Assembly: GCA_947492825.1 (NCBI GenBank)
Contig: CANLNT010000003.1
Coordinates: 62,001 to 126,000 of the forward strand
Direction of reading: 5' to 3'
Source of the DNA: an uncultured Paracoccaceae bacterium
Lineage (GTDB): Bacteria; Pseudomonadota; Alphaproteobacteria; Rhodobacterales; Rhodobacteraceae
Length of the DNA: 64,000 bases
Shown piece after piece: positions 505-63,987 of the stretch (position 1 is the first letter of the stretch; each line of letters begins with the position of its first letter). Under the pieces are notes generated by a model. It searched no databases. It was given only the letters and a program-made list of their open reading frames with translations, and was not told the origin of the DNA. The position numbers and the translations under genes are program-made.

Positions 505-519
505 TTATATTAAGGTTAA
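505..519 (+). promoter_or_regulatory. CtrA-like box (TTAT-N7-TTAA)
   Basis: TTAT, seven bases, TTAA, then GG, ending 45 bp before the ATG at 565. This is the weakest member of the set, but its distance to the start matches the boxes before the genes at 2929 and 5507 (47 bp each). CtrA of alphaproteobacteria is known to bind TTAA-N7-TTAA; use of this site is inferred. Confidence 0.4.
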
Positions 520-564
520 GGGACCAGAAAGACGTAGGGGGGGTGTCTTGCTGGAAACAAAGAC

Positions 565-762
565 ATGCAAACTAGCGCACACAGGCGCCACCTCGCTATG
601 CAGGTGGTCGCGAAGTACATGAATGATTGGCCGAAAGAGGCATCGGATGTGTCGTTGATCGGCGAGCTAGAGAAAAAGGCCTACCAACTTGCCCGAGAAG
701 GGGATTTCGGCTCAGCGAAGAGGCTGTTTGTTGCCGTAGCTGACCTTCAGATTTCCACCTAG
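565..762 (+). CDS. small helical protein, paralogue of the gene at 2720-2929
   Basis: 65 residues, function unknown. The C-terminal half (GELEKKAYQLAREGD...KRLFVAVADL) aligns with the product at 2720-2929 (GRIEDKGYALARRGQ...NFLFVAVSDL), so the two are diverged copies. The predicted fold is a two-helix hairpin with no signal peptide or membrane segment. A GGAAA purine run precedes the ATG, and a weak CtrA-like box lies 45 bp upstream. I infer membership of the CtrA-box small-protein family described in the findings. Confidence 0.6.
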   Translation: MQTSAHRRHLAMQVVAKYMNDWPKEASDVSLIGELEKKAYQLAREGDFGSAKRLFVAVADLQIST

Positions 763-897
763 ATTTGCTTTTCTGTTCTTTGAAGTGCCTTGTTAGCTGT
801 AATAGCTAGGCTGATCCAAATCGCTCTTTCAATGTAGGAGTTGCGAAGGATCAAATTGTGGAGCAAGACACAACGAGTCCAACGTTTCTATCAATAG

Positions 898-1143
898 CTA
901 CTGTTCTGGCGTCAGAAGGATCACTCCATCGAATACTTCGTATCGAGTTTCGGGATCGTTGAGTAACTCTTCTGGTTGGTGAGTTCGTCGGCTGTTGAAG
1001 CTAGCTATACCTTGGAGCACTAGCCCGCAAACTGCTGCCGACCCATAGTATACCGCCACCAATTGACCCGCATTCAGACCATATATCAAGTACATCGCAA
1101 GCGTCGTTGCTGTCGCGACTAGACCGTAAAAGATAGCTATCAT
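898..1143 (-). CDS. small two-helix membrane protein
   Basis: 81 residues. The first 55 contain two hydrophobic segments (about residues 2-22 and 28-48) and the C-terminal 30 are polar and acidic, so it is probably an inner-membrane hairpin with a cytoplasmic tail. A GGGAG sequence lies a suitable distance before the ATG. No family is recognised. It is a stand-alone gene between the small gene at 565 and the IS element. Confidence 0.55.
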   Translation of the reverse strand: MIAIFYGLVATATTLAMYLIYGLNAGQLVAVYYGSAAVCGLVLQGIASFNSRRTHQPEELLNDPETRYEVFDGVILLTPEQ

Positions 1144-1386
1144 CAGGGTTCTCCCGAGTGGATCTCAATAGTCTGCAGGTCACTAGTTAATGAAAAATGA
1201 ATCCCACCGGCTGTTAACAGCAAATGGTAGAAACCGGACGCATAGCACACTTAGACAAGCACCTATAAATTCGGACCGAAGTCTAGTTAGCGTCGCACTG
1301 CTTGTTCGCTACGCGATCTGACCTGCCCCCCGCAACCTCCTGGACTTTAATGTAGAGTTTGCTCAACCTTTTGAAGGAGCAAACGA

Positions 1387-1650
1387 ATGCGAAAGAGCCG
1401 TTTCACAATAGCGCAGATAATTGGAATGATCAAAGAACAGGAAGCCGGGATGCCAACGGCTGAGGTGTGCCGCAAGCACGGCCTCAGCCAGGGCACATTC
1501 TACAAATTCAAGTCCAAGTATGGCGGCATGGAGGTGTCTGATGCAGTCAAGCTGAAGGCACTCGAGGATGAGAATGCCAAGCTGAAGCGTCTGCTGGCGG
1601 ACCAGACGCTGGATGACGTGGTTCTGAAAGACTTGCTGGGAAAGAACTGA
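1387..1650 (+). CDS. IS3-family transposase OrfA
   Basis: 87 residues: an N-terminal helix-turn-helix (about 8-45, containing CRKHGLSQGTFYKFKSKYGG) that in this family binds the terminal repeats, then a leucine-zipper-like coiled coil (about 55-85). AAGGAG precedes the ATG. In intact relatives the full transposase is an OrfAB fusion made by -1 frameshifting near the orfA end. Here that fusion would still be broken by the lesion in orfB. Confidence 0.85.
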   Translation: MRKSRFTIAQIIGMIKEQEAGMPTAEVCRKHGLSQGTFYKFKSKYGGMEVSDAVKLKALEDENAKLKRLLADQTLDDVVLKDLLGKN

Positions 1651-1688
1651 CGACATCAAACGACCGACGGGAAGCAGCGCTCAGGGCG

Positions 1689-2547
1689 ATGCGAGATCAT
1701 GCCATCTCGCAATGGCGGGCGTGCAGGCTGGTTGGTGTCGATCCAAAAACCGTCAGGTGCGACCGTCCGCCTGACAATCCGAAGATCCGCAAAGAGATGA
1801 AGAAGATCGCAAATAAGCGGCGCAGGTTTGGCTATCGCCGGATCGGGATCATGCTTGAGCGCGAAGGATATGTGATGAACCACAAGAAATTGTATCGCCT
1901 GAACACAGAAGAGAAACTGGGCGTCAGGCGACGATGGGGGAGGAAGCGGGCACGTGGGTCACGAACACCGATGCCAGAAGCGCTGCGGCCCGGAGAACGA
2001 TGGTCGCTAGACTTCTTGTCTGAAACGTTCGGCGCATCTCGCCGGTTCCGCATTCTGGCCGTGAATGATGATTGCTGCCGGGAAAACCTGTGCCTGATGG
2101 CTGACACCAGCCGTCTCGGGCGCACGGGTGGCACGGGAACTGGATGCACTTATCCGGTTCTATGGCGAACCGGCTAGCATTGTCAGTGACAACAGGACGG
2201 AGTTCAACAGTCGCGCGATCCTGAAATGGGCCAACGAAAACGGCGTTGAGTGGCATTACATTGATCCTGGCAAACCCCAGCAGAACGCCTTCTTCGAGAG
2301 CTTCAACGGTAGCTTGCGCGACGAACTCCTGAACGAGGAGATGTTCGACAGCCTAGACGATGCAAGACGCAAACTCGCCCTATGGCGATACGATTACAAC
2401 AACGTCAGGCCGCTCTCGTCGCTCGACAACAAAACACCCGCAGAAGCGCGCCGAGCGCTTGAACAATTTGAGGGCTCCGCGCCCGCCGCGCTTGCCCAAA
2501 CTGACAACAAAGAATATGAAAACCAGACCCGCAGACTCTCGTTTTGA
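1689..2547 (+). pseudogene. IS3-family transposase OrfB, frameshifted
   Basis: The DDE integrase is split over two frames. The first part ends at 2177 and contains WSLDFLSETFG with the first acidic residue. The second, from about 2128, has [10 protein letters not shown] and [14 protein letters not shown] with the second and third. The junction is in the segment after LMADTS, where one extra base compared with the expected reading (CCGTCTC in place of CCTCTC) moves the frame. The usual DNGTEF is also DNRTEF. The enzyme is therefore presumed inactive. Confidence 0.82.
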
Positions 2548-2577
2548 ATGAGGGAGCCTCGGGGGGGCAGGTCACAG

Positions 2578-2668
2578 TAGACGAACCGAATTCTTCCATT
2601 GTAGCAACGGGAGAGCTAAAGTGGTTTAGCCCGAAAAAGAGTTTGGCTTCGTCGTCGATGAAGAGGGC
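2578..2668 (+). pseudogene. cold-shock protein fragment next to the IS
   Basis: Immediately after the IS right end the frame reads NSSIVATGELKWFSPKK, the start of a cold-shock (CSD) domain. It can be resumed as FGFVVDEEGQ only after adding one base in the lysine-rich stretch near 2642. No start codon remains upstream because the IS lies there, and the rest of the domain is gone. This is a remnant of a CspA-type gene, perhaps the second domain of a double-CSD protein. Confidence 0.65.
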
Positions 2669-2719
2669 CAAGAGTTGGCACAACCGACGCTTTGTCTCCC
2701 TCAGAAACTAAGGCGAGCG

Positions 2720-2929
2720 TTACTGGCAGTCTCTTTTTCTCGCCAGCTCAAGGTCTGATACGGCCACGAAAAGAAAGTTCGCCTCGGCAGCTTGTCCCCG
2801 CCTTGCCAGTGCGTAGCCCTTGTCTTCAATTCTACCAATCAGTTGGTCCTCAGTTAGATTTTGACAGTCGCCCAAGTATTTTTGTGCAACAGTTTGAGCT
2901 CTCTCCAGAGCATTCTTTGAGCTTAACAT
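2720..2929 (-). CDS. small helical protein, CtrA-box family
   Basis: 69 residues, cytoplasmic, function unknown. It is predicted as an all-helical hairpin. Residues 28-62 match the product at 565-762, including LFVAV(S/A)DL. The start is the ATG at 2929, preceded by TTGGGG, the same ribosome-binding context seen before the gene at 5507. A CtrA-like box (TTAG-N7-TTAACC) lies exactly 47 bp upstream, as for the 5507 gene. Confidence 0.65.
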   Translation of the reverse strand: MLSSKNALERAQTVAQKYLGDCQNLTEDQLIGRIEDKGYALARRGQAAEANFLFVAVSDLELARKRDCQ

Positions 2930-2975
2930 GACACTACCCCAAGTTGTGTGATCCTTGAACGTTTGTCGCTTAAGG

Positions 2976-2990
2976 TTAATGAGAGCCTAA
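2976..2990 (-). promoter_or_regulatory. CtrA-like box (TTAG-N7-TTAA)
   Basis: On the minus strand it reads TTAG, GCTCTCA, TTAA, then CC, with its near edge 47 bp upstream of the ATG at 2929. The inner half-site TTAACC is identical to those before the genes at 5507 and 8960. Confidence 0.55.
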
Positions 2991-3000
2991 CAATCGCGAC

Positions 3001-3396
3001 CGTTTCTCGATTACTTTGTCGCCCGAGATCCAAGTACCTGAAGCGCCTAAGGAAACCGTGTGCATTACCCAACGTAAAGTTGGTCAATTACGTTAAATCG
3101 TCATTCTTCTAATGGATTGTTGCGGCGAACGAGCCAAGATGGTCCTTGATAGGGTCATCCGCGAGTCGATTGGGAATGAGGTCCAGGTCGTCAGCGGTTC
3201 GCTGGCAACACTCACTTGCTCTGCCGAAGTGCGAATTGGTGGAGAAAAGGACGCCGATCAACACGTTATCAGAAGATTTTTTTCCGACGCAAGTTTTGCC
3301 AAACAAGTTCAACCACCGTACTGATTAAGAGTTGGGAAGGACAACGTTAATATATTCAATTTGGTACGATTGGCGTGCCGATCCTCTCGAAATTCA
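3001..3396. other. intergenic stretch, no gene supported
   Basis: A 70-codon frame at 3112-3324 (+) lacks a ribosome binding site and resembles nothing I know. I see no promoter of obvious strength. Confidence 0.35.
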
Positions 3397-3435
3397 CCTT
3401 CAATCCACTCGCCGAGTGAGCGAGTGGATTGAAGG
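3397..3435. terminator. perfect 16-bp inverted repeat, possible terminator of the ppsR-like operon
   Basis: CCTTCAATCCACTCGC (3397-3412), a 7-base loop, and its exact complement (3420-3435). It lies 80 bp past the stop of the minus-strand ppsR-like gene. The minus-strand sequence after the stem has only a short T run (GAATTTC), so Rho-independent termination is plausible but not certain. Protein binding is an alternative. Confidence 0.45.
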
Positions 3436-3515
3436 CACAGCATTGGGTCTACAGCTGAGATCGAATGTCGAATTCGCATCTGAGAGAACATTCCCTGAGA
3501 CTGTCTCGAGCGCCA

Positions 3516-4190
3516 TCAATGTAGTGAGGCTCTTTTCCTCCGCCTGAGCTCTAAGCGAGTGATCCCCAATAACTCAGCGGCGGCGAATTCATCGCCACGG
3601 CAGGAGCGGAGCGCTTCAGCAATGCAGATTCTCGCCACCTCATCGGCAGCTGCTGCCATAATGTCTGCGAGAGGTGCCGCCCCGACCAATGCGCTCGCAG
3701 ATGCGCTAAATTGTTCTGCCGATGGCGCAGGTTCACGCGCAATCTGTTTGAGGAGCTTTTCGTTCTCGGCTTGCCATCGTGCATTCAACTCCGTCATTGG
3801 TCGGAGGTCTCTACAAACGATTTGATGGACGGGTCCAAATGTTGCTTGAACTCGAAAACTCTTGGCGAGGAGAGGGATCTCGGAATCACTTTCCACCATG
3901 AAGTTAAGATGTCGCCACCGGTCACTTGCAACTGACGGTGTTGCGTCGAGTCCTAGCAGTGACGGTATCTTGACGGCGCTGTCCTTGGCCACGATGTCCA
4001 CAAGCCCCCGTCCGCACCATTTCGTTCGGAGATCAAAGTCGAACTTCTTCTTTTCTGGCACCACAACGTCCAGAACTTCGATACGCTCCGACAACAGGAT
4101 GCTGACATCGCCACTAGACGCCAAAAGCGCGGCGGCGTCGTAACCGCTCCAAGGGTTTTTTCCCGACCCATCAATCGGCGCATCACCCAT
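3516..4190 (-). CDS. miniature PpsR/CrtJ-like transcriptional regulator
   Basis: 224 residues, about half the length of PpsR/CrtJ, the light/redox repressor of photosynthesis genes in purple bacteria. The N-terminal part (residues 10-130) resembles a PpsR PAS-type module ending in VCRDLRPMTELNARW. A linker helix follows, then LVGAAPLADIM and a Fis-type helix-turn-helix (RGDEFAAAELLGITRLELRRR), as at the PpsR C terminus. One or more PAS domains of full-length PpsR are missing. The start chosen is the ATG at 4190, which overlaps the end of the upstream AerR-like gene by 8 bp (translational coupling); an earlier in-frame start at 4310 would overlap that gene by 128 bp. The HTH is basic and somewhat atypical, so DNA binding is likely but unproven. 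Confidence 0.7.
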   Translation of the reverse strand: MGDAPIDGSGKNPWSGYDAAALLASSGDVSILLSERIEVLDVVVPEKKKFDFDLRTKWCGRGLVDIVAKDSAVKIPSLLGLDATPSVASDRWRHLNFMVESDSEIPLLAKSFRVQATFGPVHQIVCRDLRPMTELNARWQAENEKLLKQIAREPAPSAEQFSASASALVGAAPLADIMAAAADEVARICIAEALRSCRGDEFAAAELLGITRLELRRRKRASLH

Positions 4191-4965
4191 CAAACCGGCC
4201 TTCTCTACGTTCCGACTCCGTCCAACCTCGTTCGAAGAAGTCCATTGCATCATCTGCCGAAGCTGAAACGGCATCGGCACCCAAGAAGCTATAGAGGTTT
4301 GGGGATCCATGAATAGCGCTGCCGCCGACTAAAATCTTGATGTTGGGGTTTATGGCAGACCGCCTGATCTGTGTGACTAAGTCTGCCAAACCATCCAACT
4401 GATTGTCCGTACCAATCGAGACACCGATAACATCTATGTCGTGAGACCCAATTTTCTCAATCAAATCGTCTGAACTGAAGTCGTGCCAAAGATGTGCGTC
4501 CCACCCAAAACGTCTGATGTTGTCGACGAGCATTTGAGGCCCAAAAGTGTGCTGTTCGGTCTTTGGTATCCATATGATGGCCGTGCCAATGAAGAGTGAT
4601 GATTGGGCCGCTCGTGCTTGGGATGAGGTCAGTTCGTCCAGCGTCCTGCGCAATGTCCAGTAGGTTTCCGCAATCTCCCCGATTGTAAGCGTGTCATCGC
4701 TCCATGCTTTATCGAGATGTGCAATGGCTCCCAATGCCAAGGCTGGCCAATTGTCCGAGATGTTACCGAGTTCGCAAGCTTTTGAGATGTCTCGAGAACG
4801 CAGGGCTGACAAAAACGCACAAGTCATATCGTCCAGCGAGGCCGCTGCCCCGGAATAGGGATCGGAAGCACCGAGGAAAGACGCAACATCTTGAACACCT
4901 CGCACCGTCCAGTCGAATGTTTCATCACATTCTTCCCGTCTTCGAACACCAGTAAAACTCGTCAA
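4183..4965 (-). CDS. AerR/PpaA-like cobalamin-binding regulator
   Basis: 260 residues. The C-terminal half (about 125-250) is a B12-binding Rossmann domain: TEQHTFGPQM matches the His-containing loop, then DVIGVSIGTDNQ and KILVGGSAI. The N-terminal half is a helical B12-cap region. AerR/PpaA proteins bind cobalamin in a light-dependent way and act as antirepressors of CrtJ/PpsR. Here the gene precedes and overlaps a ppsR-like gene, the same partnership. No bacteriochlorophyll or puf genes are in the window, so the target is unknown. The start is uncertain: TTG at 4965 opens the longest frame, and a GTG about 60 bases downstream is possible. Confidence 0.75.
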   Translation of the reverse strand: MTSFTGVRRREECDETFDWTVRGVQDVASFLGASDPYSGAAASLDDMTCAFLSALRSRDISKACELGNISDNWPALALGAIAHLDKAWSDDTLTIGEIAETYWTLRRTLDELTSSQARAAQSSLFIGTAIIWIPKTEQHTFGPQMLVDNIRRFGWDAHLWHDFSSDDLIEKIGSHDIDVIGVSIGTDNQLDGLADLVTQIRRSAINPNIKILVGGSAIHGSPNLYSFLGADAVSASADDAMDFFERGWTESERREGRFDG

Positions 4966-5151
4966 GGTCCATTCCGCGCCAATCGATCACTCCGTGAACA
5001 ATTGTGTTCCGCCCCAGTTTGGCTAGCCCGTTCAGTCAGCTTACAGGGCAGAGTGCATAGTATCTCGTAGAGATAAGAACGAAACAAGCAGTCTACAAAT
5101 CCTAGATTGCATGTCGATTTAGTGAGGCTGTGCCATCCCTTCATTCTTTAA

Positions 5152-5208
5152 TAACCAATTTTCCTCATGGTCGATGCATCGCAACCCTCGCGATACACCC
5201 TCACACAG
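5152..5208 (+). ncRNA. conserved intergenic element, copy A (sRNA candidate)
   Basis: It begins TAACCAATTT and ends with ACACCCTCACACAG (5195-5208), and runs straight into a hairpin. The same two landmarks in the same order occur at 8056-8110, also before a hairpin. There is no reading frame in either copy. A short transcript ending at the 5208 terminator is the simplest reading, but the promoter is not obvious; it could instead be a protein-binding repeat. Confidence 0.35.
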
Positions 5209-5237
5209 CCCACTCGCTCACTGGCGAGTGGGCATTT
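5208..5237 (+). terminator. Rho-independent terminator
   Basis: GCCCACTCGC, loop TCACTG, GCGAGTGGGC (5208-5233), then ATTTCTTTT. A 10-bp perfect stem followed by a T-rich tract points to plus-strand termination. No plus-strand protein gene precedes it, which supports a short RNA upstream. Confidence 0.6.
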
Positions 5238-5327
5238 CTTTTCCAATCATGACCTTGTGGTATGGCTCCCGAAAACCGCTCGGCACGGCATTTTCGCAAG
5301 TTGTGAGTTATCGCCCGCTCTACGTAC

Positions 5328-5507
5328 TTATCTGACCGGTTTGAAAGACTTGTCTTGATCAACCAAGTTTGGGCGGTCGCTCCAAAGGGTGTCCTCGTTC
5401 AGCGTCGCTGCAACCTGATAAAGTGCCTGCTCAAGTCCATCAAAGCCTGAGCGCTTCGCCATCATGATCGCATCAACCAATCGTAGGTGCAGAAGTTCTT
5501 TTTCCAT
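5328..5507 (-). CDS. small helical protein (MEKELL type), CtrA-box family
   Basis: 59 residues, unknown function, beginning MEKELLHLRLVDAIMM. It forms a helix, a glycine-containing turn (KRSGFDG) and a second amphipathic helix (LEQALYQVAATLNED), then a polar tail. TTGGGGAAAATGTC precedes the ATG. A perfect TTAA-N7-TTAA box lies 47 bp upstream. A decayed copy with a deletion lies at 8550-8629. The gene is shorter than usual annotation cut-offs, but conservation of the copy and of its leader argues that it is real. Confidence 0.65.
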   Translation of the reverse strand: MEKELLHLRLVDAIMMAKRSGFDGLEQALYQVAATLNEDTLWSDRPNLVDQDKSFKPVR

Positions 5508-5553
5508 GACATTTTCCCCAATTTACGTCAACGGAAGGCGTAATTAGGGAAGG

Positions 5554-5568
5554 TTAACGAGGAGTTAA
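5554..5568 (-). promoter_or_regulatory. perfect CtrA box TTAA-N7-TTAA
   Basis: TTAACGAGGAGTTAA on the plus strand matches the alphaproteobacterial CtrA consensus exactly in both half-sites. Its near edge is 47 bp upstream of the ATG at 5507, equal to the spacing at the 2929 gene. This is the best box of the set. Confidence 0.65.
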
Positions 5569-5666
5569 ACTCAAGGATCTGTTAGTAGATGCGGCAGAAT
5601 TCTGCCTATTTGGTGGACACACAAAACTTCATGCCCGCCAAATGGGCAGCATTCCACTTTGTGCGC

Positions 5667-5849
5667 CTACTTCACGACGTGAAGGTTGGCCCGTTTTGAC
5701 CGTTGATAGATGGTAGTTTCGCAGCCCGTTTCGATGGCAGCGACAGCTTGCGCCTCTCGCAATGTCTCCTCAAGCTTTTCCAGTTTGTTCTTCTCGGCGT
5801 AACAAGCAACATCTTCAAGAATGCTAACAATCCATCCGTGGTTTTGCAT
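5667..5849 (-). CDS. small helical protein (ILED type), CtrA-box family
   Basis: 60 residues, paralogue of 8781-8960 (shared W-I-V-x-ILED, YAE-NKLE-L-x-T-REA-x-VA and a terminal VK). The start is the ATG at 5849, because the copy at 8960 has ATA at the preceding codon and both share CTGGGGAAG as ribosome binding site. A helix-turn-helix hairpin without motifs of known DNA-binding families. A CtrA-like box lies 65 bp upstream. Function unknown. Confidence 0.65.
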   Translation of the reverse strand: MQNHGWIVSILEDVACYAEKNKLEKLEETLREAQAVAAIETGCETTIYQRSKRANLHVVK

Positions 5850-5913
5850 CATCTTCCCCAGCAAAGGTTATCTAGTTCCAGCAAGTTGATTTGTATTTTG
5901 ACCGGTCTCATAG

Positions 5914-5928
5914 TTAAGGAATCGTAAA
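5914..5928 (-). promoter_or_regulatory. CtrA-like box (TTTA-N7-TTAA)
   Basis: On the minus strand TTTA, CGATTCC, TTAA, with its near edge 65 bp upstream of the ATG at 5849. The equivalent box of the paralogue at 8960 is TTTA-N7-TTAACC at 67 bp, so position and sequence are both kept. Confidence 0.55.
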
Positions 5929-5929
5929 C

Positions 5930-6513
5930 ATACCGAGCGGACCTTACGTACTGTGTTCAGCCTTCGATTGCAGGCTGCAAGAGTGGTCGTTCAAGCACTC
6001 ATCAGCGGATTTGATCGAGAGGGTTCCGCCTATAGGCATGGCAAGTCCGTCGAGGGTTGGGAGTATGCCGATTGAAAGGGATTCTACAACTGGCCATTTT
6101 TGGGGGGGGGCCCGCTGGCCCGAAGCACTCTGGCACCTGAGCGGTTGAACTCCTAGAGGTAGAACGAACCCGCCCAGTATGATATCGTCAAAATACTTTC
6201 TCCCACCGAGAGCAGTGGGGTCGCTGACCGTTTGCCGACTACTTTGCGGTCCCACACTCGGATGAAATCGCCAGCGAAGGCAATTCAAATAGCTTACACT
6301 TGCGATTTTTTGCTTGGTCAGACTGTGTGACAACTTCGAGGTATCGCTTGTCCGTTGGGCTTTGTGAAAGATTCAGTGGCGAAGGATGCCCTTGGACTGT
6401 CCAGTAACCGCGAATAATTGAACTGTTTATTAGTAGTTTTATGTTGAACCCTTTTGGGAGCACGTTCGAAGAATTCGGCGATTTGAAAACCCGAACCTAG
6501 CTAGTTGGGGATC
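5930..6513. other. intergenic stretch with no supported gene
   Basis: Minus-strand frames at 5944-6333 and 6239-6463 lack ribosome binding sites and look like chance. A run of nine G near 6103 could be a sequencing-prone or slipping tract. I see no RNA gene. Confidence 0.35.
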
Positions 6514-6945
6514 ATGTCTGACAGTCGGAATGCATCAAGTATGACGAATCACCTATTCAACTCGTTCTCGTACAAGATGATGACTTGGCAGCTTAAGCGA
6601 AAGCGACAAAGATACTGCTCGATATCGTTCAGGATGACGGATACTCAAAGGGACGAAACTGAAGCTTCTAGCGCCTATGGACTTACCTGTATGGGGCTTT
6701 CGGTAAGTCTGATCCGCTCCCTTGTTCGCAAGACGGATTCAGTATTGGCGGTTGCGCCCACACACATCACAATCTTGCTGATGGATTGTACAGAGGAAGC
6801 AGCGAACAAGGTTCTATTTAGAGTGATAGGAGTGGCAGTGGGGGGGAAACCAAGAGTCATCAACACATCACAGGCGTCGCATTCTTGTTTTGCTGAAGTG
6901 CTGGATAGAAACGGCAAAACTAAGTACCGGCACGTCCTCCGATAG
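6514..6945 (+). CDS. unknown protein, possibly a degenerate GGDEF-like domain
   Basis: 143 residues. The start is the ATG at 6514, preceded by TTGGGG (the leader also found before the CtrA-box small genes). The segment LIRSLVRKTDSVLAVAPTHITILLMDCTEEAANKVLFRV has the spacing and hydrophobic pattern of the strand-GGDEF-strand region of diguanylate cyclases, but with the GGDEF signature and metal ligands lost. It precedes a real cyclase gene by 174 bp. This resemblance is by eye and weak; the gene itself is likely but not certain. Confidence 0.4.
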   Translation: MSDSRNASSMTNHLFNSFSYKMMTWQLKRKRQRYCSISFRMTDTQRDETEASSAYGLTCMGLSVSLIRSLVRKTDSVLAVAPTHITILLMDCTEEAANKVLFRVIGVAVGGKPRVINTSQASHSCFAEVLDRNGKTKYRHVLR

Positions 6946-7119
6946 TTTCGTGAACGGCCTATCTCCGATTAGCCGGTGTGAAATCGAGAGTAGAGTCGTT
7001 TGCCATTCAGGCTCTGTCTCCACATGCCCCACTGTAACCGGGCCATCATCGAACTTCTTCACAAAGGATTCATTTGGTTTCGACATGCTTTGCCCAGAGA
7101 CGCAGCTTAAAGGCATGGC

Positions 7120-8010
7120 ATGAAGATAGCGAAACTTCTGGCTGAGAAGTCGACTAATAGTGTTGAAAAGGTGTCGCCAACTTCGACTTTGAGTGAGGTG
7201 GCAACCAAGTTGATGGAACTACGCATTGGAGCACTTGTTGTCTGCGATGCGGCAGGGAAACTGGTGGGGATTGTATCCGAACGTGATTTGCTACCTGTTG
7301 TCGCCAACATAAAAGCGCTTCCAGCCAACACAGTTGTTGCTAAGGTGATGTCTCCGAATGTCATCACTTGCGGCCCGGATGATGAGATTGCCGCCATACT
7401 TCGCCTGATGAATGCAAATTCCATCCGCCATATCCCTGTAATTGTTGAGCAAAGTTTGATCGATATGGTGAGTATCCGGGAGCTGACCACAGCTTATGAG
7501 ATCCTGCAAAAGGAAGCAGATACGGATCCTTTGACCGAATTGCCCAATCGCCGACCGTTCTTGGGAAGATTGGAGGCCGAGTTCGCTCGCGCAAAAAGAT
7601 TCAAGCATCATTTTGCTGTTGCCATGATAGACATCGACCACTTCAAAGCGGTGAATGATACCTATGGCCACGATGCAGGCGATCAGGTGTTGCGCGCGGT
7701 ATCAGGCAAACTCATCAATCAGTTCCGCACCATCGACATGGTAGGGCGACTAGGCGGTGAGGAGTTTGCCGTCATTTTTCCTGAAACCAAAGTCAAAAGC
7801 GCAGAGATTGCGTGTATTCGTTTACTCCAAGAACTTGAGTCAACGATCATTTTTGCAAGTGGACATCAGATTGGAATTACAGCAAGTGTTGGACTGGCAG
7901 GGTTGTCATCAGCTTCGACTGCGGGCGCAGAGGTTCTGAAGCGGGCGGACGAGTTGCTTTATGACGCAAAGAGAGCTGGTCGAAATAGGGTAGTTTCTAA
8001 GGCGGTCTAG
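7120..8010 (+). CDS. CBS-pair diguanylate cyclase (CBS-CBS-GGDEF)
   Basis: 296 residues. Two CBS motifs (about 10-65 and 75-125), which in other proteins bind adenosyl nucleotides, are followed by a complete GGDEF domain (about 130-293): metal-binding DIDHFKAVND (171-180), active-site GGEEF (212-216), and an inhibitory RxxD site (RTID, 203-206) exactly five residues before GGEEF. It should make c-di-GMP from two GTP, under CBS ligand control and product inhibition. It is cytosolic, with no membrane segment. It lies between the two copies of the duplicated small-gene block. c-di-GMP could control the neighbouring polysaccharide locus (inference). Confidence 0.9.
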   Translation: MKIAKLLAEKSTNSVEKVSPTSTLSEVATKLMELRIGALVVCDAAGKLVGIVSERDLLPVVANIKALPANTVVAKVMSPNVITCGPDDEIAAILRLMNANSIRHIPVIVEQSLIDMVSIRELTTAYEILQKEADTDPLTELPNRRPFLGRLEAEFARAKRFKHHFAVAMIDIDHFKAVNDTYGHDAGDQVLRAVSGKLINQFRTIDMVGRLGGEEFAVIFPETKVKSAEIACIRLLQELESTIIFASGHQIGITASVGLAGLSSASTAGAEVLKRADELLYDAKRAGRNRVVSKAV

Positions 8011-8055
8011 CAAGGCTACTTGGTAAAGCTCTCCAACTGCTTTTTGCCTTTTGTT

Positions 8056-8110
8056 AACCAATTTGTTCCAAATTCCTTGTCGCCATCATCGCACGCACAC
8101 CCTCACACAG
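8056..8110 (+). ncRNA. conserved intergenic element, copy B (sRNA candidate)
   Basis: Starts AACCAATTT and ends ACACCCTCACACAG (8097-8110), as in copy A at 5152-5208. The following hairpin is weaker (CAACT/AGTTG stem around TGCTTCGC) and lacks a T run. Confidence 0.3.
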
Positions 8111-8157
8111 TCAACTTGCTTCGCAGTTGGTGGGCAGCCCCGCGAGTCAGTTTCACT

Positions 8158-8361
8158 CTATCGACCCAAGAAACTCATCACGAATTTTCCTAGGCTTGTG
8201 AGGTTCACCTTCGACCCTTCTTCATCCACCTCCACGAGGCGGAGTTCAGAAAATATCCCAAAGTCTTCGCTTGACATTTCGCCAGCAGACGCAGCTCGCT
8301 GCAGATTTCCGTCTTCAGAATAATCCAGCGATGCTGAAATCACCCTCGAAATTCGTTCCAA
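8158..8361 (-). CDS. small hypothetical protein
   Basis: 67 residues. No ATG exists, but a TTG at 8361 follows a strong GGGAGGAGG ribosome binding site, so TTG is the likely start. The C-terminal half (SELRLVEVDEEGSKVNLTSLGKFVM) has the strand-turn-helix look of a winged-helix wing and last helix, but is too short for a full domain. No family recognised. It is inserted in copy B of the duplicated block and has no counterpart in copy A. Confidence 0.5.
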   Translation of the reverse strand: MERISRVISASLDYSEDGNLQRAASAGEMSSEDFGIFSELRLVEVDEEGSKVNLTSLGKFVMSFLGR

Positions 8362-8517
8362 TTTGGCCTCCTCCCAAAGATTTTGGATCTGCTACGGGAG
8401 GATTGACCCGAAGGAACGGGGAAGACGAAATGCAACGGCTCACAAGTTGCGTTTTGTTCAACGTTTCGATGCCCCATTTGGAAGTAGCGGTAGGTCTACG
8501 CGTCTTTCAGCCTGGTC

Positions 8518-8542
8518 TCCTTAGCAGATTCGCTGCTAAGGA
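8518..8542. repeat. 10-bp perfect inverted repeat
   Basis: TCCTTAGCAG, five bases, CTGCTAAGGA. It lies just past the decayed small gene at 8550-8629 on the minus strand. There is no T run on either side, so termination is doubtful. Confidence 0.35.
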
Positions 8543-8549
8543 AATGTTG

Positions 8550-8629
8550 GTCGTTTAGCGTGGTCGCAACCTCATAAAGCGCGGCCTCAAGTCCTACGAA
8601 GCCAAAACGCTTAGCAGCTCTTTTTCCAT
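8550..8629 (-). pseudogene. decayed copy of the MEKELL-type small gene
   Basis: The leader (TTGGGG) and first six codons (MEKELL) match 5328-5507. About a dozen codons are then missing and the frame is lost, so translation stops after 11 residues. The remainder, KRFGFVGLEAALYEVATTLND, can be read in another frame and aligns with KRSGFDGLEQALYQVAATLNE. The upstream box is also eroded (GCTA-N7-TTAACC, 49 bp away). Confidence 0.7.
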
Positions 8630-8780
8630 TCTGTGCACTCCCCAAATTATGTCTTTAGACGCTTACGTCAGGCTAGGTTAACATTGGATAGCCAAAGTTT
8701 AACTTGGCAAAATTTGCCGACGCCAAAGTGCAATCTACAGCTGAGCCTCGCCTGAATGGACAAGTCGATTTCGGAAGGAT

Positions 8781-8960
8781 CTACTTCACCAAAGACAGTT
8801 TTGGCTTAGCGGAAAAGGTTCGATGTATGGGATATCCAACTTCTTGAATCGCGACTGTTCTCGCCTCCCTGATCGTATCGTTCAGCCTGTCGAGTTTGTT
8901 ATCTTCGGCGTACCTGACAATATCTTCAAGTATACCAACAATCCATCGGTGTTCGTGCAT
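8781..8960 (-). CDS. small helical protein (ILED type), CtrA-box family
   Basis: 59 residues, paralogue of 5667-5849 with about half the positions identical in the first 45 residues (RWIVGILEDIVRYAEDNKLDRL). ATG at 8960 after CTGGGGAAG. A CtrA-like box lies 67 bp upstream. Cytoplasmic, no cysteines, function unknown. Divergence between copies is in surface-type residues while the hydrophobic pattern is kept, which suggests selection for function. Confidence 0.65.
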   Translation of the reverse strand: MHEHRWIVGILEDIVRYAEDNKLDRLNDTIREARTVAIQEVGYPIHRTFSAKPKLSLVK

Positions 8961-9026
8961 TATCTTCCCCAGCAAATGGTTTTCTAGTTCCAGAAAGCAG
9001 TAGTTACATGTTGACAGAAGAATTGG

Positions 9027-9041
9027 TTAACAGACCGTAAA
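9027..9041 (-). promoter_or_regulatory. CtrA-like box (TTTA-N7-TTAACC)
   Basis: On the minus strand TTTA, CGGTCTG, TTAA, CC, with its near edge 67 bp upstream of the ATG at 8960. It corresponds in position to the box at 5914. Confidence 0.55.
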
Positions 9042-10065: not shown

Positions 10066-10214
10066 TTATGCTGCTCGAGCAGCACAATGCCAAGGTGTGA
10101 GCTCGTCGAGGCGCGTGATCTTGTGGTCAGTGATTTGGGCGAGGACCCATGTTAGCCACGCCTGCGGATCAACCTTGTTGAGCTTGGCGGTCTCGATGAG
10201 TGTGTAGGCAATTG
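10066..10214 (-). pseudogene. IS66-family transposase C-terminal fragment
   Basis: Read on the minus strand the frame ends with [34 protein letters not shown], the C-terminal signature of IS66 TnpC. It is cut at 10215 by the end of the truncated IS3 copy. On the far side (about 10640-10720) a degenerate AMRSI-like segment may be the next upstream piece of the same transposase. The element is non-functional. Confidence 0.7.
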
Positions 10215-10637
10215 TGACCTGCCCCCCGAGGCTCCCTCATTCAAAACGAGAGTCTGCGGGTCTGGTTTTCATATTCTTTGTTGTCAGTTTGGGCAAGCGC
10301 GGCGGGCGCGGAGCCCTCAAATTGTTCAAGCGCTCGGCGCGCTTCTGCGGGTGTTTTGTTGTCGAGCGACGAGTGCGGGCTTGACGTTGTTGTAATCGTA
10401 TCGCCATAGGGCGAGTTTGCGTCTTGCATCGTCTAGGCTGTCGAACATCTCCTCGTTCAAGAGTTCGTCGCGCAAGCTACCGTTGAAGCTTTCGATGAAG
10501 GCGTTCTGCTGGGGCTTGCCAGGATCGATGCAATGCCACTCAACGCCGTTTTCGTTGGCCCATTTCAGGATCGCGCGACTGGTGAACTCCGTCCTGTTGT
10601 CACTGACAATGCTAGCCGGTTTGCCATAGAACCGGAT
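10215..10637 (-). mobile_element. truncated IS3-family element (3' 420 bp only)
   Basis: It carries the same right end (TGACCTGCCCCCCGAGGC) and nearly the same orfB C terminus as 1319-2574, in opposite orientation. Homology stops at about 10637, corresponding to 2151 in the longer copy. A one-base difference near 10380 (an extra base after AACGTCA) shifts the frame between the two copies. It lies inside an IS66 remnant. Confidence 0.82.
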
Positions 10638-10823: not shown

Positions 10824-11861
10824 TCATGTCCGACCCGCCATGAGACCTTTGTCACCAGATTCGCTGGTCCAAAAATGCGAGTTGGCACAAAGCAGTTGGC
10901 GCCATTTTAGAAAGAATGTTTCTTCGAGGATAATGGATTTCGCGTTCAATTCGTTGAGTGGGCTACCTGCCCGCGACCGAACTTGCAGGATCTTGCACGC
11001 TATACAATTCTTTGAATACTGCTCAAGAAACTCAGCGCCGAGCGGTTCATGGTCCTGCAATCCGTCAACATTCGAGCAGATCAACAATTTACCGGCACTG
11101 ATCGCTTCGATGGCGACCAAGCCGTAAGCTTCCCAGCGCGAAGGCATTACAACGGCGTCAATATTGGCGAACGCTTCGGTGGGTGAGGCCGCAAAGCCTT
11201 TGAAGACGATCCTTTGATCGCCTGCAGCGAGCTGACGGAGATTTTCTTCCTCTTCGCCTTCCCCAAAAATGTGAAGTTCGATGTCACGCGCCTCGCATGT
11301 CTTGAATGCCGCAATCAACGCATCAAAACCTTTTTGACGATCAAGCCGACCAATGGCACCAAATATCCGGACAGGACCGTCCGTGGCCGGGATTGAGCGG
11401 AACGGAGCAAGGTCGACGCAGGACTGGATTGTCGAAACCTTACTTCTGGCGCACAGGTTCTTTGCTGAAAACCAATCTGCCTGCGCGTAGCTCACGCTCA
11501 CAATTTGGTCGAACAAGGAAAAGCCGGTGCGGAGCAGTGTCAGGAACCGGCGCTGATGGGTCACGTTATGGGCCACAAATCCTTCAGTGTAGCTATGTTC
11601 GACATGGATCATTGGCTTCCCGGCATTCGACGCCCGAAGTAAAATGAGCGCCGGCAGGTTTCGCCAGGAAAACGTCAGATGTGATACGATGACATCTGCC
11701 TCGTAGCGCGTAGCGTTAAGTTTGCCTCGCGATGCAACCTGACGTTCGTGCTGGATCTCGGTCTGCCTGCCATTGCCGGACAAAATGAAATCGACAACCC
11801 GCGTGATGCCCCCGGCAGTCGTGTCATCAACAAGGTGGACGACTTTCATCGGACGCGTCAT
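10824..11861 (-). CDS. glycosyltransferase family 4
   Basis: 345 residues, GT-B fold. It opens with VVHLVDDTTAGGITRVVDF and has the nucleotide-sugar-binding C domain with GAIGRLDRQKGFDALI, then PSRWEAYGLVAIEAISAGK (the EX7E-type signature). It probably adds one sugar to the undecaprenyl-linked EPS repeat unit on the cytoplasmic face. The ATG at 11861 overlaps the previous gene's stop by 4 bp (ATGA). It is the last gene of a minus-strand run from 15018. The last 40 residues are less typical, perhaps from decay next to the IS remnants. Confidence 0.85.
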   Translation of the reverse strand: MTRPMKVVHLVDDTTAGGITRVVDFILSGNGRQTEIQHERQVASRGKLNATRYEADVIVSHLTFSWRNLPALILLRASNAGKPMIHVEHSYTEGFVAHNVTHQRRFLTLLRTGFSLFDQIVSVSYAQADWFSAKNLCARSKVSTIQSCVDLAPFRSIPATDGPVRIFGAIGRLDRQKGFDALIAAFKTCEARDIELHIFGEGEEEENLRQLAAGDQRIVFKGFAASPTEAFANIDAVVMPSRWEAYGLVAIEAISAGKLLICSNVDGLQDHEPLGAEFLEQYSKNCIACKILQVRSRAGSPLNELNAKSIILEETFFLKWRQLLCANSHFWTSESGDKGLMAGRT

Positions 11862-60525: not shown

Positions 60526-61581
60526 CTAGGCGGTTTGCATAGCAGTTTTGGATAGACGCTTGATCAAAACCACTGGATCAAACTGGTCTCGACGTTGACC
60601 CAAGGTGATACTGTGAAAATACGCTCCAAAGTCCCTGATGCGTTGTCCAAGTTGTAGCATGATGAAGATCGCGCATGACGCTTTCTGAGCTCCTACTGCA
60701 TTCTTGGCTTTCTCGAATGTATCTGGGTGAATCCCCATCATGGGTGCAAGAGTTCGAGCATGGTTTTCAATGTCCAACCAGTTTCTAAGCTTCTCTGTGG
60801 AGAACGATGTCGCTTGATCGCAAACTGAGGTTAGCAAGTCTGGTTTCATAGCTTCATTGCCTATGTTGCTATCTAAATCTTTTTTTTCTTCTTTAGACAT
60901 AGATTGGTGCCGGACAGTTTGTCCGTCATTGGCGGGCAATTCCACAGTTTCTGGTAGGTCATCTGGGGTATGCAAAGTCAGGCATTCTTTGTCCGTGTCG
61001 GCGAGCAGCGCGTGGTATTCGGGAAGGCTCAGCTTCCGGCGTAGTGCTCTACGTGCGTGGTTGATGAATGTGTTGCTGGGATCATGCTCTTCCAAATGGG
61101 CGAGCTTTGTTAGGATCTGTTTGCGGACAAATATCCGATCCCGCCGGTTGTTCTCCATCTCATGTGCGATGGCGATAAGCTCGCTCGCGCGTTGGAGGAG
61201 GGGGGTAAGAGACAGTCCAAAACTGATGCATTCCCCGCTGGACGAGCGAACGCGGTAGCGCTTTCGATTTGAACTGTCATTGCGTTTGATGAACCCGAGT
61301 TCGACGAAGCGGTTGATGTGTCTGCGGAGTGTCCGTTCGTCGATTCCGCCGACGCGCTGGCAAATCGAGTCGTTGGACGCGAAAACCGTTTCACCATGGC
61401 CGGGCTTCAAGAAACTGAGCATGGCTTGAAGTGTTTGGATATGGCCAGGACGCAGACCGAATACGCTACGTGCATCTCTCAGTGCCCTGAAGATGGTCCA
61501 GATGTCGGTTTCAGCCGCAGAAATTGGACCGCGTGATGCATCAGCGCCAGCGGTTCCGATCGATAGTTTTGTAAATGCCAT
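60526..61581 (-). CDS. repC: replication initiator RepC
   Basis: 351 residues. N-terminal winged-helix region (about 25-140: DIWTIFRALRDARSVFGLRPGHIQTLQAMLSF, ERTLRRHINRFVELGFIKR) typical of RepC initiators, which open the origin inside their own gene. The C-terminal half (ending QRIRDFGAYFHSITLGQR) also matches. Last gene of the repABC operon. Translation and transcription are held down by the ctRNA just upstream. The start is the ATG at 61581. Confidence 0.87.
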   Translation of the reverse strand: MAFTKLSIGTAGADASRGPISAAETDIWTIFRALRDARSVFGLRPGHIQTLQAMLSFLKPGHGETVFASNDSICQRVGGIDERTLRRHINRFVELGFIKRNDSSNRKRYRVRSSSGECISFGLSLTPLLQRASELIAIAHEMENNRRDRIFVRKQILTKLAHLEEHDPSNTFINHARRALRRKLSLPEYHALLADTDKECLTLHTPDDLPETVELPANDGQTVRHQSMSKEEKKDLDSNIGNEAMKPDLLTSVCDQATSFSTEKLRNWLDIENHARTLAPMMGIHPDTFEKAKNAVGAQKASCAIFIMLQLGQRIRDFGAYFHSITLGQRRDQFDPVVLIKRLSKTAMQTA

Positions 61582-61682
61582 GGTTTGTTCACGACGACCG
61601 TTTGGCCCTCAACTTCCCAGTCTCTTCCCAAAATTTCGCTCAGGAAAAGGCAATAAAAATCCGTCCACCGAATCGGTGACTC

Positions 61683-61711
61683 TTGACCGGTTTGCTGGAG
61701 GTTGCTACATC
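61683..61711 (+). promoter_or_regulatory. ctRNA promoter
   Basis: TTGACC (61683-61688), 17 bp, TACATC (61706-61711) on the strand opposite repABC, in the repB-repC gap. The position fits the promoter of the antisense RNA of repABC plasmids. Confidence 0.55.
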
Positions 61712-61717
61712 ATGAGT

Positions 61718-61770
61718 GCTAATCGAATGATGAGGGCTCTCCAGGGGAAACTTTGGGGGGCTCTTTTCTT
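61718..61770 (+). ncRNA. antisense counter-transcribed RNA (incompatibility RNA)
   Basis: About 53 nt. It starts just past the TACATC -10 element and ends in a GAAA-tetraloop hairpin (CTCCAGGG/CTTTGGGG, 61738-61758, with wobble pairs) followed by CTCTTTTCTTT. In repABC plasmids a ctRNA of 50-60 nt from this place represses repC and sets copy number and incompatibility. Exact ends are inferred. Confidence 0.6.
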
Positions 61771-61819
61771 TCTGGTCTTCGCTTTTCTCCTCTGCTCGCG
61801 TTACTCTGTGTGGCTTGGG

Positions 61820-62788
61820 TTAGGACCCAGAGCCGCTCTCATTCCGCCACTGTTCGAAGAGCTGCAAAAGCGTTGCCTCCGCGCGCTCTTCGAGCCATCG
61901 GCCGAATTCTGGGTTGTCCTTCTTGGCGATCTTGATGGCGATCGTTTTCTGATCGACTGTCAGCGTTCCCACAGAGCTACCGTCCCCATCTTTGACGACG
62001 GACGTTAGGCTGCGGTTGTCTTGCTTCTTGTTGCTACGCGCCTTGTTCGAGCATGCCGAGTAGACTGCCTGAAACTTCTCCGCGCTTGGAGTGTCGTCGG
62101 GCAGGGCGGCAATCGCCTCTTTGGCCGTGTTCACCAGATCTATATTTTTCGAGAACGCGGCCAGGTCACCCCATTGCCGTCGTCCGATGCCATGTGCCGG
62201 CCCGATCAGCTGTACAAGCCCTTCTGGCAGTTGCTCTATGACGACGCGATGGTTGGATACGCCCTGCCGTGTCAAGCCTAGAGCATCCTGAATTACGTTT
62301 GGCTTGTAACCTGATTCCTGCATCTCTTTGATAAAAAGAGATTTCTCGATGAAAGACGGGTCTAGTCTGAGGTTGTTCTCTTGGCCCTGTGCGATCAGAG
62401 ATGCGTCGTCATCCAAGGTTCGAACGATCGCCTTGACCGTTCCGCCGACCATGCGGATTGCTGCAAGTCTGCGTCGGCCGTAGATGATACGGTATCTGTC
62501 CGGTTGGGCCGATGGACGGACCATAATTGGCACTTGTTGCCCATGCTTGCGAATGCTTTCGGCCAACTCATCAATACTGGAATCCTCGAGCACCAACCGA
62601 TCGCGCAGACCATCCATGTCAATCTGATCGGGCTCGATGTCCCGAATGGAATTCGCGGTGATCTCGCGCAAAGAGTCGCGCAAGCCGCCAACAGATCCTG
62701 GCAGTTTTGCCGCTTTCGGCGGGGTAGGGGAGGGGGCCGCGCTCTCCTTCTCGTCCTTTGGAGGCTGATTGAAGATATTTCGGGCCAT
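61820..62788 (-). CDS. repB: partitioning protein RepB
   Basis: 322 residues. The ParB-like domain has EDSSIDELAESIRKHGQQVPIMVRP-type spacing (about 70-90), the RIIYGRRRLAAIR box and a HTH (LGLTRQGVSNHRVVIEQLP). It binds parS, helped by RepA. The start ATG shares one base with the repA stop (TGATG at 62786-62790), so it is translationally coupled; an earlier ATG in frame is less likely. Confidence 0.9.
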   Translation of the reverse strand: MARNIFNQPPKDEKESAAPSPTPPKAAKLPGSVGGLRDSLREITANSIRDIEPDQIDMDGLRDRLVLEDSSIDELAESIRKHGQQVPIMVRPSAQPDRYRIIYGRRRLAAIRMVGGTVKAIVRTLDDDASLIAQGQENNLRLDPSFIEKSLFIKEMQESGYKPNVIQDALGLTRQGVSNHRVVIEQLPEGLVQLIGPAHGIGRRQWGDLAAFSKNIDLVNTAKEAIAALPDDTPSAEKFQAVYSACSNKARSNKKQDNRSLTSVVKDGDGSSVGTLTVDQKTIAIKIAKKDNPEFGRWLEERAEATLLQLFEQWRNESGSGS

Positions 62789-63987
62789 CAGCGACGCCCC
62801 CATGCCATTTGGATTGTTTGTTCCAACTCATCGCCAACGCCGTTCACGCTGGTCAGAGCGCGATCAATCGTTTTCCTGATGAACTGGCTCGGATCAACTT
62901 CGTAGACGGTTTGCTGGGTCATACCGGCGTCCGAGATTGCTGTAGACTTCAGCATTGGCTCAGTCATGACCTGTCCGGCCAAGATCGATCTCAGGTAGCC
63001 CGCCATCTGGGTCTGAGGCCCGTCCGACGGCTCGTATCTCGTGATCAAGAACTTTACGAAGTCCCATGTAACGCGCCGGCCAATGGCTTCTTCGACAGCC
63101 TTTACTGTTTCCGAAGCAAGTTTCAGGAACTGGCTCATCGAAGCAATGTCGAGCATGCCTGGTACGACCGTTACCAGGAGTCCCGTCGAGGCTGCCAACG
63201 CCGTTAGGGTCAGAAAGCCAAGTTGAGGCGGGCAGTCGATCAGCACGATGTCGTAACTCGCCTCAACTTCCTCAAGCGCTAAGGCGAGGCGCTCCGCAAA
63301 TATGGGCTGCACCCGACGGGCGAGGGCGTTTGCCGTCTCAGTTTCGTATTCCGAGAGCATTAGGCCCGCCGGAACCATATCGAGCTTATGGAAGTAGGTC
63401 GTTTGGATGACGGCTGAGAGTGGAACTTGCTCCTCATATCTCAGAGCATCATAGATTGTGCCGCCTTCAGCGAACTCGAGCTCAGGCCGAAAACCGAAAA
63501 AAGTGGTCAAACTTGCCTGCGGATCGAGATCCAAGACCAACACTCGGTAACCTCGCAAAGCATACCGTTGTGCAAGATGGATCGTTGCTGTTGTTTTTGA
63601 CGATCCGCCTTTGAAATTGACGACAGATATCACCTGGAGACGATCGCCTTCACGTCGACCGGGGCGGTAGCTTTCTGCGTTCTTTCCGGTGCGCCCCAGA
63701 ATATCGCGCAGCTTATCGATCTCTTGGGCCGTGTAGAACCGGTGTCCGCGGTTGTCTGTATGAACTTCCGGGAAGCTGCCGTCCTTGTGCCGGTTGCGCA
63801 GGTTAGATGTGCTAACGCGCAGGAGGCTGGCAACTTCGGTAGAACTGAAACGGCGCAGGGACTTTCGTTCTTCGGGCTCGAAAGCGATCTTCATCTGGCG
63901 ATCCAAAGATTCAGCCAGATTGTCGGCAAATGCTCCGATGTCGGAAGAGCCTATGCCTTGCGCGTATCCAACGTTACGATCATCCAT
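62788..63987 (-). CDS. repA: partitioning ATPase RepA (ParA family)
   Basis: 399 residues. N-terminal MerR-like HTH (about 45-90: FSSTEVASLLRVSTSNLRNRHKDGSFPEVHTDNRGHRFYTA-type region) is followed by deviant Walker A FKGGSSKTT (about 125-133), DLDPQASLT and DCPPQLG. It drives plasmid segregation and autorepresses the operon. The ATG at 63987 (MDDRNVGYAQ) is the start; the repABC promoter and any upstream site are beyond the window edge. Confidence 0.92.
   Translation of the reverse strand: MDDRNVGYAQGIGSSDIGAFADNLAESLDRQMKIAFEPEERKSLRRFSSTEVASLLRVSTSNLRNRHKDGSFPEVHTDNRGHRFYTAQEIDKLRDILGRTGKNAESYRPGRREGDRLQVISVVNFKGGSSKTTATIHLAQRYALRGYRVLVLDLDPQASLTTFFGFRPELEFAEGGTIYDALRYEEQVPLSAVIQTTYFHKLDMVPAGLMLSEYETETANALARRVQPIFAERLALALEEVEASYDIVLIDCPPQLGFLTLTALAASTGLLVTVVPGMLDIASMSQFLKLASETVKAVEEAIGRRVTWDFVKFLITRYEPSDGPQTQMAGYLRSILAGQVMTEPMLKSTAISDAGMTQQTVYEVDPSQFIRKTIDRALTSVNGVGDELEQTIQMAWGRR

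Follow-up and report, generated by a model that had tools for sequence, protein, structure and literature searches.

The stretch of DNA analyzed here (the window; 64,000 nucleotides, positions 62001-126000 of contig C3 in genome G000, an uncultured marine Paracoccaceae bacterium) contains an array of small genes preceded by boxes that resemble the motif recognized by CtrA, the regulator that governs motility, cell division, gene-transfer agents and signaling in alphaproteobacteria. A first-pass annotation had placed such boxes before five intact small genes and one decayed copy. On re-measurement, each of the five intact genes was found to have an upstream box that agrees with TTAA-N7-TTAA in 7 or 8 of its 8 core positions, which confirms that observation, the decayed copy excepted. 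Genes are named below by the position of their start; coordinates prefixed C3: refer to the contig, and others to the window unless another genome is named.

Small genes and their upstream boxes

The five intact genes encode proteins of three sequence types. Type 1 comprises a 65-residue protein at 565..762 (+), which is 94% identical in G002, a genome of the same genus, and a 69-residue protein at 2720..2929 (-). The box of the first, TTAT-ATTAAGG-TTAA at 505..519 (+), lies 45 bp from the ATG, with an alternative GTAA-N7-TTAA at 499-513, 51 bp from the ATG, being preferred by the scoring matrix described below; the box of the second, TTAG-N7-TTAA at 2976..2990 (-), lies 46 bp before 2929. The type-2 gene at 5328..5507 (-), encoding 59 residues, is preceded at 46 bp by the perfect box TTAA-CTCCTCG-TTAA at 5554..5568 (-), exactly as first described. 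Type 3 is represented by a 60-residue protein at 5667..5849 (-) and a 59-residue protein at 8781..8960 (-) that aligns with it, each behind a TTTA-N7-TTAA box (5914..5928 (-), 64 bp before 5849; 9027..9041 (-), 66 bp before 8960). The distance from box to start is thus 45-46 bp for types 1 and 2 and 64-66 bp for type 3, so that the pattern of distances initially reported (45, 47, 47, 65 and 67 bp) holds, with a one-base difference in counting (45, 46, 46, 64 and 66 bp). Identity within types is 41% for type 1, 47-50% for type 3 and 49% for type 2 (gapped alignment). A common TTGGGG leader, also proposed, is found as (T/C)TGGGG ending 6-10 bp before the start of 2929, 5507, 5849, 8960 and the decayed copy 8629, and is missing from 565.

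A fourth kind of boxed small gene lies at 898..1143 (-) and encodes an 81-residue protein with hydrophobic stretches recognized by eye, for which Pfam gave matches below cut-off only. Its box, TTCA-N7-TTAA at 1187..1201 (-), lies 43 bp before 1143 and is kept in G002, and a second, diverged copy of the gene at C3:5174-5446(-) has its box at C3:5490, also 43 bp before the start. A further boxed type-3 copy is located on C3 at 13266. The decayed type-2 copy at 8496..8629 (-) begins with MEKELL and then runs out of step with the 5507 frame. The full box claimed for it could not be recovered: a leftover TTAA(CC) half site remains at 8678..8681 (-), 48 bp from 8629, no 15-mer within 100 bp matches the box core at more than 6 of 8 positions, and the best full-box matrix score is 2.8 (measured from 8645), a value equaled by 5% of shuffled sequences.

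Contig C3 has 128,714 bases in a genome of 4.0 Mb and, judged by its genes, is a repABC plasmid carrying type IV secretion genes. The plasmid replication and partition genes repC, repB and repA occupy 60529..63987 (-) (Pfam RP-C, RepB/ParB_N and AAA_31), a type IV coupling protein is encoded at 25711-27714 and a VirB-family gene lies at C3:18942. The description of the small genes as plasmid-borne is therefore sound for C3, given its RepA, RepB, RepC and type IV secretion proteins, and fails as a general rule, as the corresponding array of G002 resides on an 841-kb contig. As for the host, one response regulator exceeds the NCBIfam model NF045991 for CtrA (424 bits, cut-off 350), a ChpT candidate scores above the cut-off of Pfam HPTransfase yet under both NCBIfam ChpT cut-offs, and a CckA-like hybrid kinase was identified by eye at C2:435541. 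By these assignments the host appears to encode CtrA together with its phosphorelay (CtrA, ChpT and the CckA-like kinase, the last recognized by eye). The host's own ctrA carries a box scoring 12.4 in the same matrix, 47 bp before its start, and the CckA-like gene has a perfect TTAA-N7-TTAA 41 bp before its longest frame, with a matrix score of only 8.8.

The boxes exceed chance on the plasmid

Across the genome, the bare pattern TTAA-N7-TTAA occurs at 31 places compared to 37 for its reversed control, which is no enrichment, and an independent matrix was therefore used. This matrix has 22 columns and was built from 75 boxes preceding a small open reading frame (ORF) of the luxRI locus in other Rhodobacteraceae, with the genes of the window left out. 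Over C3, it yielded 7 strand hits at 6 places with scores of at least 15, compared to none in each of 15 order-2 Markov sequences. These places lie before 2929 and 5849 (19.6 each, the joint top on the plasmid), C3:13266 (19.0), 8960 (18.3), C3:2081 (17.8) and 5507 (16.6); five of the six directly precede small genes, and C3:2081 precedes no recognizable ORF. With the threshold lowered to 10, C3 gave 12 strand hits, compared to a mean of 0.53 and a maximum of 2 in the Markov sequences. The next scores belong to the two copies of the hydrophobic protein (C3:5490, 14.0; 1187-1201, 10.4) and to the site at 499-513 before 565 (10.2). When each 110-bp upstream region was shuffled 1000 times with dinucleotides preserved, no shuffle scored as high as the real sequence for 2929, 5507, 5849, 8960 or C3:13266, and 0.3% did for 565. 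As types 1 and 2 and the hydrophobic protein have no homology to the proteins of the training genes, a match inherited along with the gene is unlikely. The scan against random expectation that the first-pass annotation had suggested thus finds boxes above chance on C3 with this matrix, and no excess genome-wide with the bare pattern.

Type 3 is homologous to a small open reading frame of the ccr-luxRI locus

When relatives of type 3 were sought, a homologue on the chromosome came to light between ccr and luxR-luxI. Comparison of type 3 with the profile of this luxRI small ORF gave an hhalign probability of 97.6% (E 3.6e-12), and by this measure the two clearly share ancestry. The luxRI loci were sampled as the best 80 of at least 560 confirmed relatives, chosen by small-ORF similarity, and their fetched flanks contain LuxR in 76, Ccr in 75 and LuxI in 71 cases. 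A perfect box is present in 72 of the 80 loci and one matching at least 7 of 8 positions in 76, with the box lying 20-23 bp before the small ORF in 75. The small ORF encodes about 68 residues, of which the first 42 are conserved (WIIDVLADLxxFAxxNxLPxLA); dN/dS (the ratio of nonsynonymous to synonymous substitution rates) over these 42 codons is 0-0.25 in 8 pairs, three of which have a synonymous rate (dS) above 2 and give rough values. In every one of the 76 loci in which LuxR was matched, LuxR homology begins ahead of the stop codon of the small ORF (median distance 52 bases). Neither LuxR nor Ccr was found beside stand-alone type 3 in the 3-kb loci L001, L026 (window) and L002 (G002). A tree did not group the plasmid type-3 copies with the host's own chromosomal copy (46 columns, poorly resolved), and an origin from that copy was set aside.

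Among the luxRI topologies described for roseobacters, ccr precedes luxRI in 'topology B' (PMC3824088). No description of the ccr-luxRI small ORF was found in the literature searched, which was covered in part and as text rather than figures, supplements or subscription journals (PMC6473078, PMC4046655, PMC3824088, PMC11655674, PMC9426580 and PMC6180460 included), so it has apparently been overlooked so far and is a candidate additional part of a much-studied quorum-sensing operon. In Rhodobacterales, quorum sensing has been judged to come under CtrA control in some marine strains only (PMC4046655); unlike this restricted view, the box is nearly universal in the present sample, which was selected by the small ORF.

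Spacing and signs of purifying selection in a sister genome

In G002, an array of the same genes spans about 7 kb on a contig that also carries the ccr-luxRI locus. Within the 30 kb scanned there, 7 places score at least 10, with six of them before small genes and one before a transposase-like ORF (11.3). The boxes score 24.4 and 13.1 before the type-2 genes at 8125 (45 bp) and 12486 (47 bp), 14.5 and 10.4 before the type-1 genes at 10892 (46 bp) and 5376 (50 bp), 12.6 before the type-3 gene at 12141 (65 bp) and 10.4 before the gene of the hydrophobic protein; the site of a third type-2-like gene, at 10422, is weaker (7.1, 44 bp). The spacing is thus kept by gene type.

Between the two genomes, dN/dS is 0.18 (565) and 0.14 (2929) for type 1, 0.22 and 0.20 for type 3 (pairs that may be paralogues), 0.15 (5507) and 0.30 for type 2 (rough values, as dS is above 2 and synonymous sites are near saturation for 5507) and 0.27 for the hydrophobic protein; the two type-3 copies of the window compared with each other give 0.39. 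These ratios indicate purifying selection on types 1-3 and the hydrophobic protein, and on their strength the small proteins are very probably made in the cell.

A luxI-like gene, recognized by eye, lies inside the G002 array (L044, 6786-7529). The window encodes at 3516-4965 (-) a B12-binding-domain protein adjoining a PpsR-like fragment; a relative of the fragment, again recognized by eye, lies beside the G002 array.

Occurrence in other genera

Type 1 is rare, occurring in 2 of 149 sampled genomes across the family (its own and G162) and in 3 of 6 within the genus, two of these being of the same species. The type-2 profile detected copies in 11 of 394 genomes and 10 of 393 genera, its own included. 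Nine of these genomes lie outside the genus, and in six (G216, G394, G317, G144, G139 and G077) a type-3 match is present in the same fetched locus; none was found in the fetched loci of G126, G411 and G340. Outside the genus, sites within 110 bp that score 10 or more are present for 8 of 13 type-2 copies (binomial 1.7e-4 with a 15% background) and for 4 of 9 neighboring type-3 copies (binomial 0.035). The background amounted to 4.4% of 594 upstream regions and 15% of 99 AT-rich ones, both including true boxes; second rows in one ORF, repeat views of one copy and rows near an edge were left out of the counts, and 3 of the 13 type-2 copies are among the sequences behind the profile, a purely protein-based one. 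Both members of the type2-type3 pair are separately boxed in G317 (18.4 at 46 bp and 18.0 at 49 bp), G394, G139:C20b and the window's own 5507/5849. Among five type-3-like copies away from luxRI in the first relatives search, a count that omits the weaker matches G028:C11, G002:C3:486264, G001:C1:499482, L021 and L025 (the last two look like chance), three are boxed (two in G007, one in G028). One query each of types 1, 2 and 3 gave no match among PLSDB plasmids.

Beside two type-3-like genes of G007 (L047), a 91-residue ORF of another type at 6388 has a site scoring 20.3 at 47 bp and is perhaps another boxed small gene.

Predicted structures and database searches

AlphaFold2 predicts a hairpin of two helices (H5-20 and H24-41) for type 3, modeled on 5849, with a predicted local distance difference test (pLDDT) score of 79.6 and a poorly predicted tail. 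For type 1 (2929), three helices are predicted at a pLDDT of 90.5 from only four sequences. The hairpin pattern that had been ascribed to all of the products therefore suits type 3 and does not describe type 1, with its third helix. A single family for the three types was likewise set aside: their turn-helix patterns look alike by eye, though hhalign probabilities are under 1%, and profile comparison does not support common ancestry. No significant match to a known domain, or to a toxin or antitoxin family, was obtained for the small proteins in Pfam, NCBIfam, PHROGs or PADLOC, and no Rfam family reached its gathering score within the window. The fold search of the Protein Data Bank (PDB) with types 1 and 3 gave no match with E up to 0.001, and the PDB sequence search gave weak matches only, with lowest E values of 0.019 (type 1) and 0.45 (type 3).

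RNA-like elements and other features of the array

The strong box at C3:2081 belongs to a segment, C3:1955-2096 (-), in which a 13-bp hairpin comes after it (z -5.2 for a 112-nt fold). The loop and adjoining stem of this element contain ACTACCCCA, which complements nine bases of the 2929 leader. The segment is a possible CtrA-controlled small RNA by its layout; as a conserved small RNA it was rejected, since of 31 genomes its own was the only one in which it was found. A repeated element occurs near the end of each type3-type2 pair (5140-5245 and 8043-8150), consisting of TAACCAATTT, then ACACCCTCACACAG and a hairpin that is strong in the first copy (z -4.6) and not in the second (z +1.25); it is perhaps a duplicated small RNA or a terminator. 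A long hairpin surrounds TTCAATCCACTCGC...GCGAGTGGATTGAA at 3395-3440 (fold z -5.1), and interrupted insertion-sequence transposase frames, recognized by eye, lie within or beside the array at 1387-2547 and 10214-10475.

Discussion

Control of the small genes by CtrA is likely. The first-pass reading of the motif as a CtrA box is borne out by its fit to the luxRI-promoter matrix, the CtrA dependence of luxR2I2 in Dinoroseobacter shibae (PMC4046655), the presence of CtrA in the host and the box 47 bp before the host's ctrA. The luxR2 promoter of D. shibae contains two perfect CtrA sites, and the reduction in a ctrA mutant is strongest for luxR2I2, presumably a ccr-type locus (PMC4046655); ctrA and cckA have predicted CtrA sites in that species as well (PMC4046655, PMC6473078). 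The interpretation first offered is therefore partly supported. Its suggestion of a role in cyclic di-GMP control drew only on a CBS-GGDEF gene at 7120-8010 in between, which has no site among the listed C3 matches, and has been dropped.

In the proposed mechanism, each small gene (types 1, 2, 3 and the hydrophobic protein) would stand under its own promoter controlled by the host's CtrA. A box 45-66 bp before the start codon would leave room for a -10 element about 17 bp further, which fits activation, since in Caulobacter CtrA activates from sites near -35 and represses from half sites that overlap -10 (told in PMC6180460); as judged from the start codons, the distance fits a predicted site near -35. 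At the chromosomal small ORF, a TGCTAnnnT element recognized by eye stands immediately upstream of the box, which puts the box after a -10-like element and suggested repression; this reading was set aside because the D. shibae data show activation.

The small helical proteins would act as adaptors whose binding partner is a regulator in the CtrA/quorum-sensing circuit, either a LuxR-type protein or a member of the phosphorelay, and the plasmid would thereby both read and tune the host's switch. This choice of partner follows from the position of the resident relative in luxRI and from work on D. shibae, whose CtrA regulon is altered by plasmids and repressed in the presence of one of them (PMC9426580). 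That CtrA-controlled small adaptors tie the plasmid to the host's CtrA/quorum-sensing circuit is the account that we favor, if by a modest degree, with occupancy of the boxes, activation and the partner being parts of it that we infer.

New here are the homology of type 3 to the luxRI small ORF, the fourth boxed small gene at 898-1143 and the neighboring type2-type3 genes in other genera. More tentatively, these proteins may form a new class of small helical proteins that serve as a mobile interface to the Rhodobacteraceae CtrA/quorum-sensing switch, with a resident form in the luxRI operon and a mobile form as a boxed type2-type3 cassette; this possibility is somewhat doubtful at present. If it holds, plasmids and islands would sense and modify the host's choice between swimming, sticking and DNA exchange, which points to a simple means by which mobile DNA could tap a host master switch. 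Other candidate genes for the plasmid effect on the CtrA regulon have been named by the authors of that work (PMC9426580), and small proteins answering to CtrA, located on a plasmid and paired across genera, are cheap further candidates for such a route.

Several observations weigh against this account. The bare motif shows no genome-wide enrichment, larger genes too stand behind perfect boxes at other places in the host genome, and another regulator could read TTAA repeats. Scores fall below 10 for 5 of the 13 type-2 copies and 5 of the 9 neighboring type-3 copies outside the genus, and of the 5 type-3-like copies taken from the first relatives search, 2 lack a site. The best site of a weakly matching type-3-like ORF at C3:14681 (E about 0.01) scores only 4.8, and the type-1-like match in G162 covers 29 residues in a locus without a site of at least 5. 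The repression-like place of the chromosomal box counts here also, and small helical proteins suit many roles.

An alternative is that the boxes are real CtrA sites through which CtrA only times the proteins to the cell cycle, their role being one for the plasmid's own benefit (addiction, copy number or the timing of transfer). This would suit a repABC plasmid with type IV secretion genes and the recurrence of neighboring type2-type3 genes, but boxed pairs often have one box per gene, unlike a toxin-antitoxin operon, the array of G002 sits on a chromosomal contig, the presence of a decayed copy is tolerated, and the best PADLOC and PHROG matches have E of 0.019 and 0.09; we regard it as unlikely. 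Less probable again is an origin of the boxes as AT-rich promoter sequence, or as targets of a regulator other than CtrA. Among AT-rich windows, 11-15% do score at least 10 (a background that includes true boxes), which, with the unenriched bare motif, speaks for such an origin; scores of at least 15, however, were absent from the 15 simulated sequences and cluster before small genes, the spacing is kept within gene types in G002 and the motif also precedes ctrA. It is very unlikely that type 3 and its relatives are Rop/ROM-like RNA-binding hairpins acting on plasmid small RNAs: the type-3 model superposes on ROM (2ijh) with a root-mean-square deviation of 0.6 over 39 columns and RNA-like hairpins lie nearby, one behind the strong box at C3:2081, but the Foldseek E of 8.9 is not significant, any two-helix hairpin would match, Rop/ROM is missing from the PDB sequence matches listed (E up to 1) and the C3:2081 element is confined to its own genome. 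Least credible is that the small ORF before luxR is a mere translational-coupling leader and the plasmid copies its relics, as the overlap with LuxR homology in 76 of 76 loci would allow, for purifying selection acts on the first 42 codons of the peptide and on the stand-alone plasmid copies.

Comparison with known systems

Small helical proteins that work by binding a partner have precedents. TraM is a small helical modulator of this kind, and Rop/ROM is likewise a small helical protein acting through partner binding, from which the present proteins differ in having no significant sequence or fold match to it. The luxI3/luxB genes on a D. shibae plasmid (PMC4046655, PMC9426580) are similar in being plasmid genes tied to a chromosomal CtrA circuit; they comprise an N-acyl-homoserine lactone synthase gene and an autoinducer-binding gene, whereas the genes described here encode small proteins of no known family. 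Also close are D. shibae luxR2I2 and the 'topology B' ccr-luxRI loci, in which ccr lies upstream of luxRI, with perfect CtrA sites and CtrA dependence in D. shibae (PMC4046655, PMC3824088). The parts of the published text covered mention no small ORF between the box and luxR (figures apart, one of which marks 'conserved hypothetical' genes), and the genes of the window differ from topology B in being stand-alone relatives on a plasmid.

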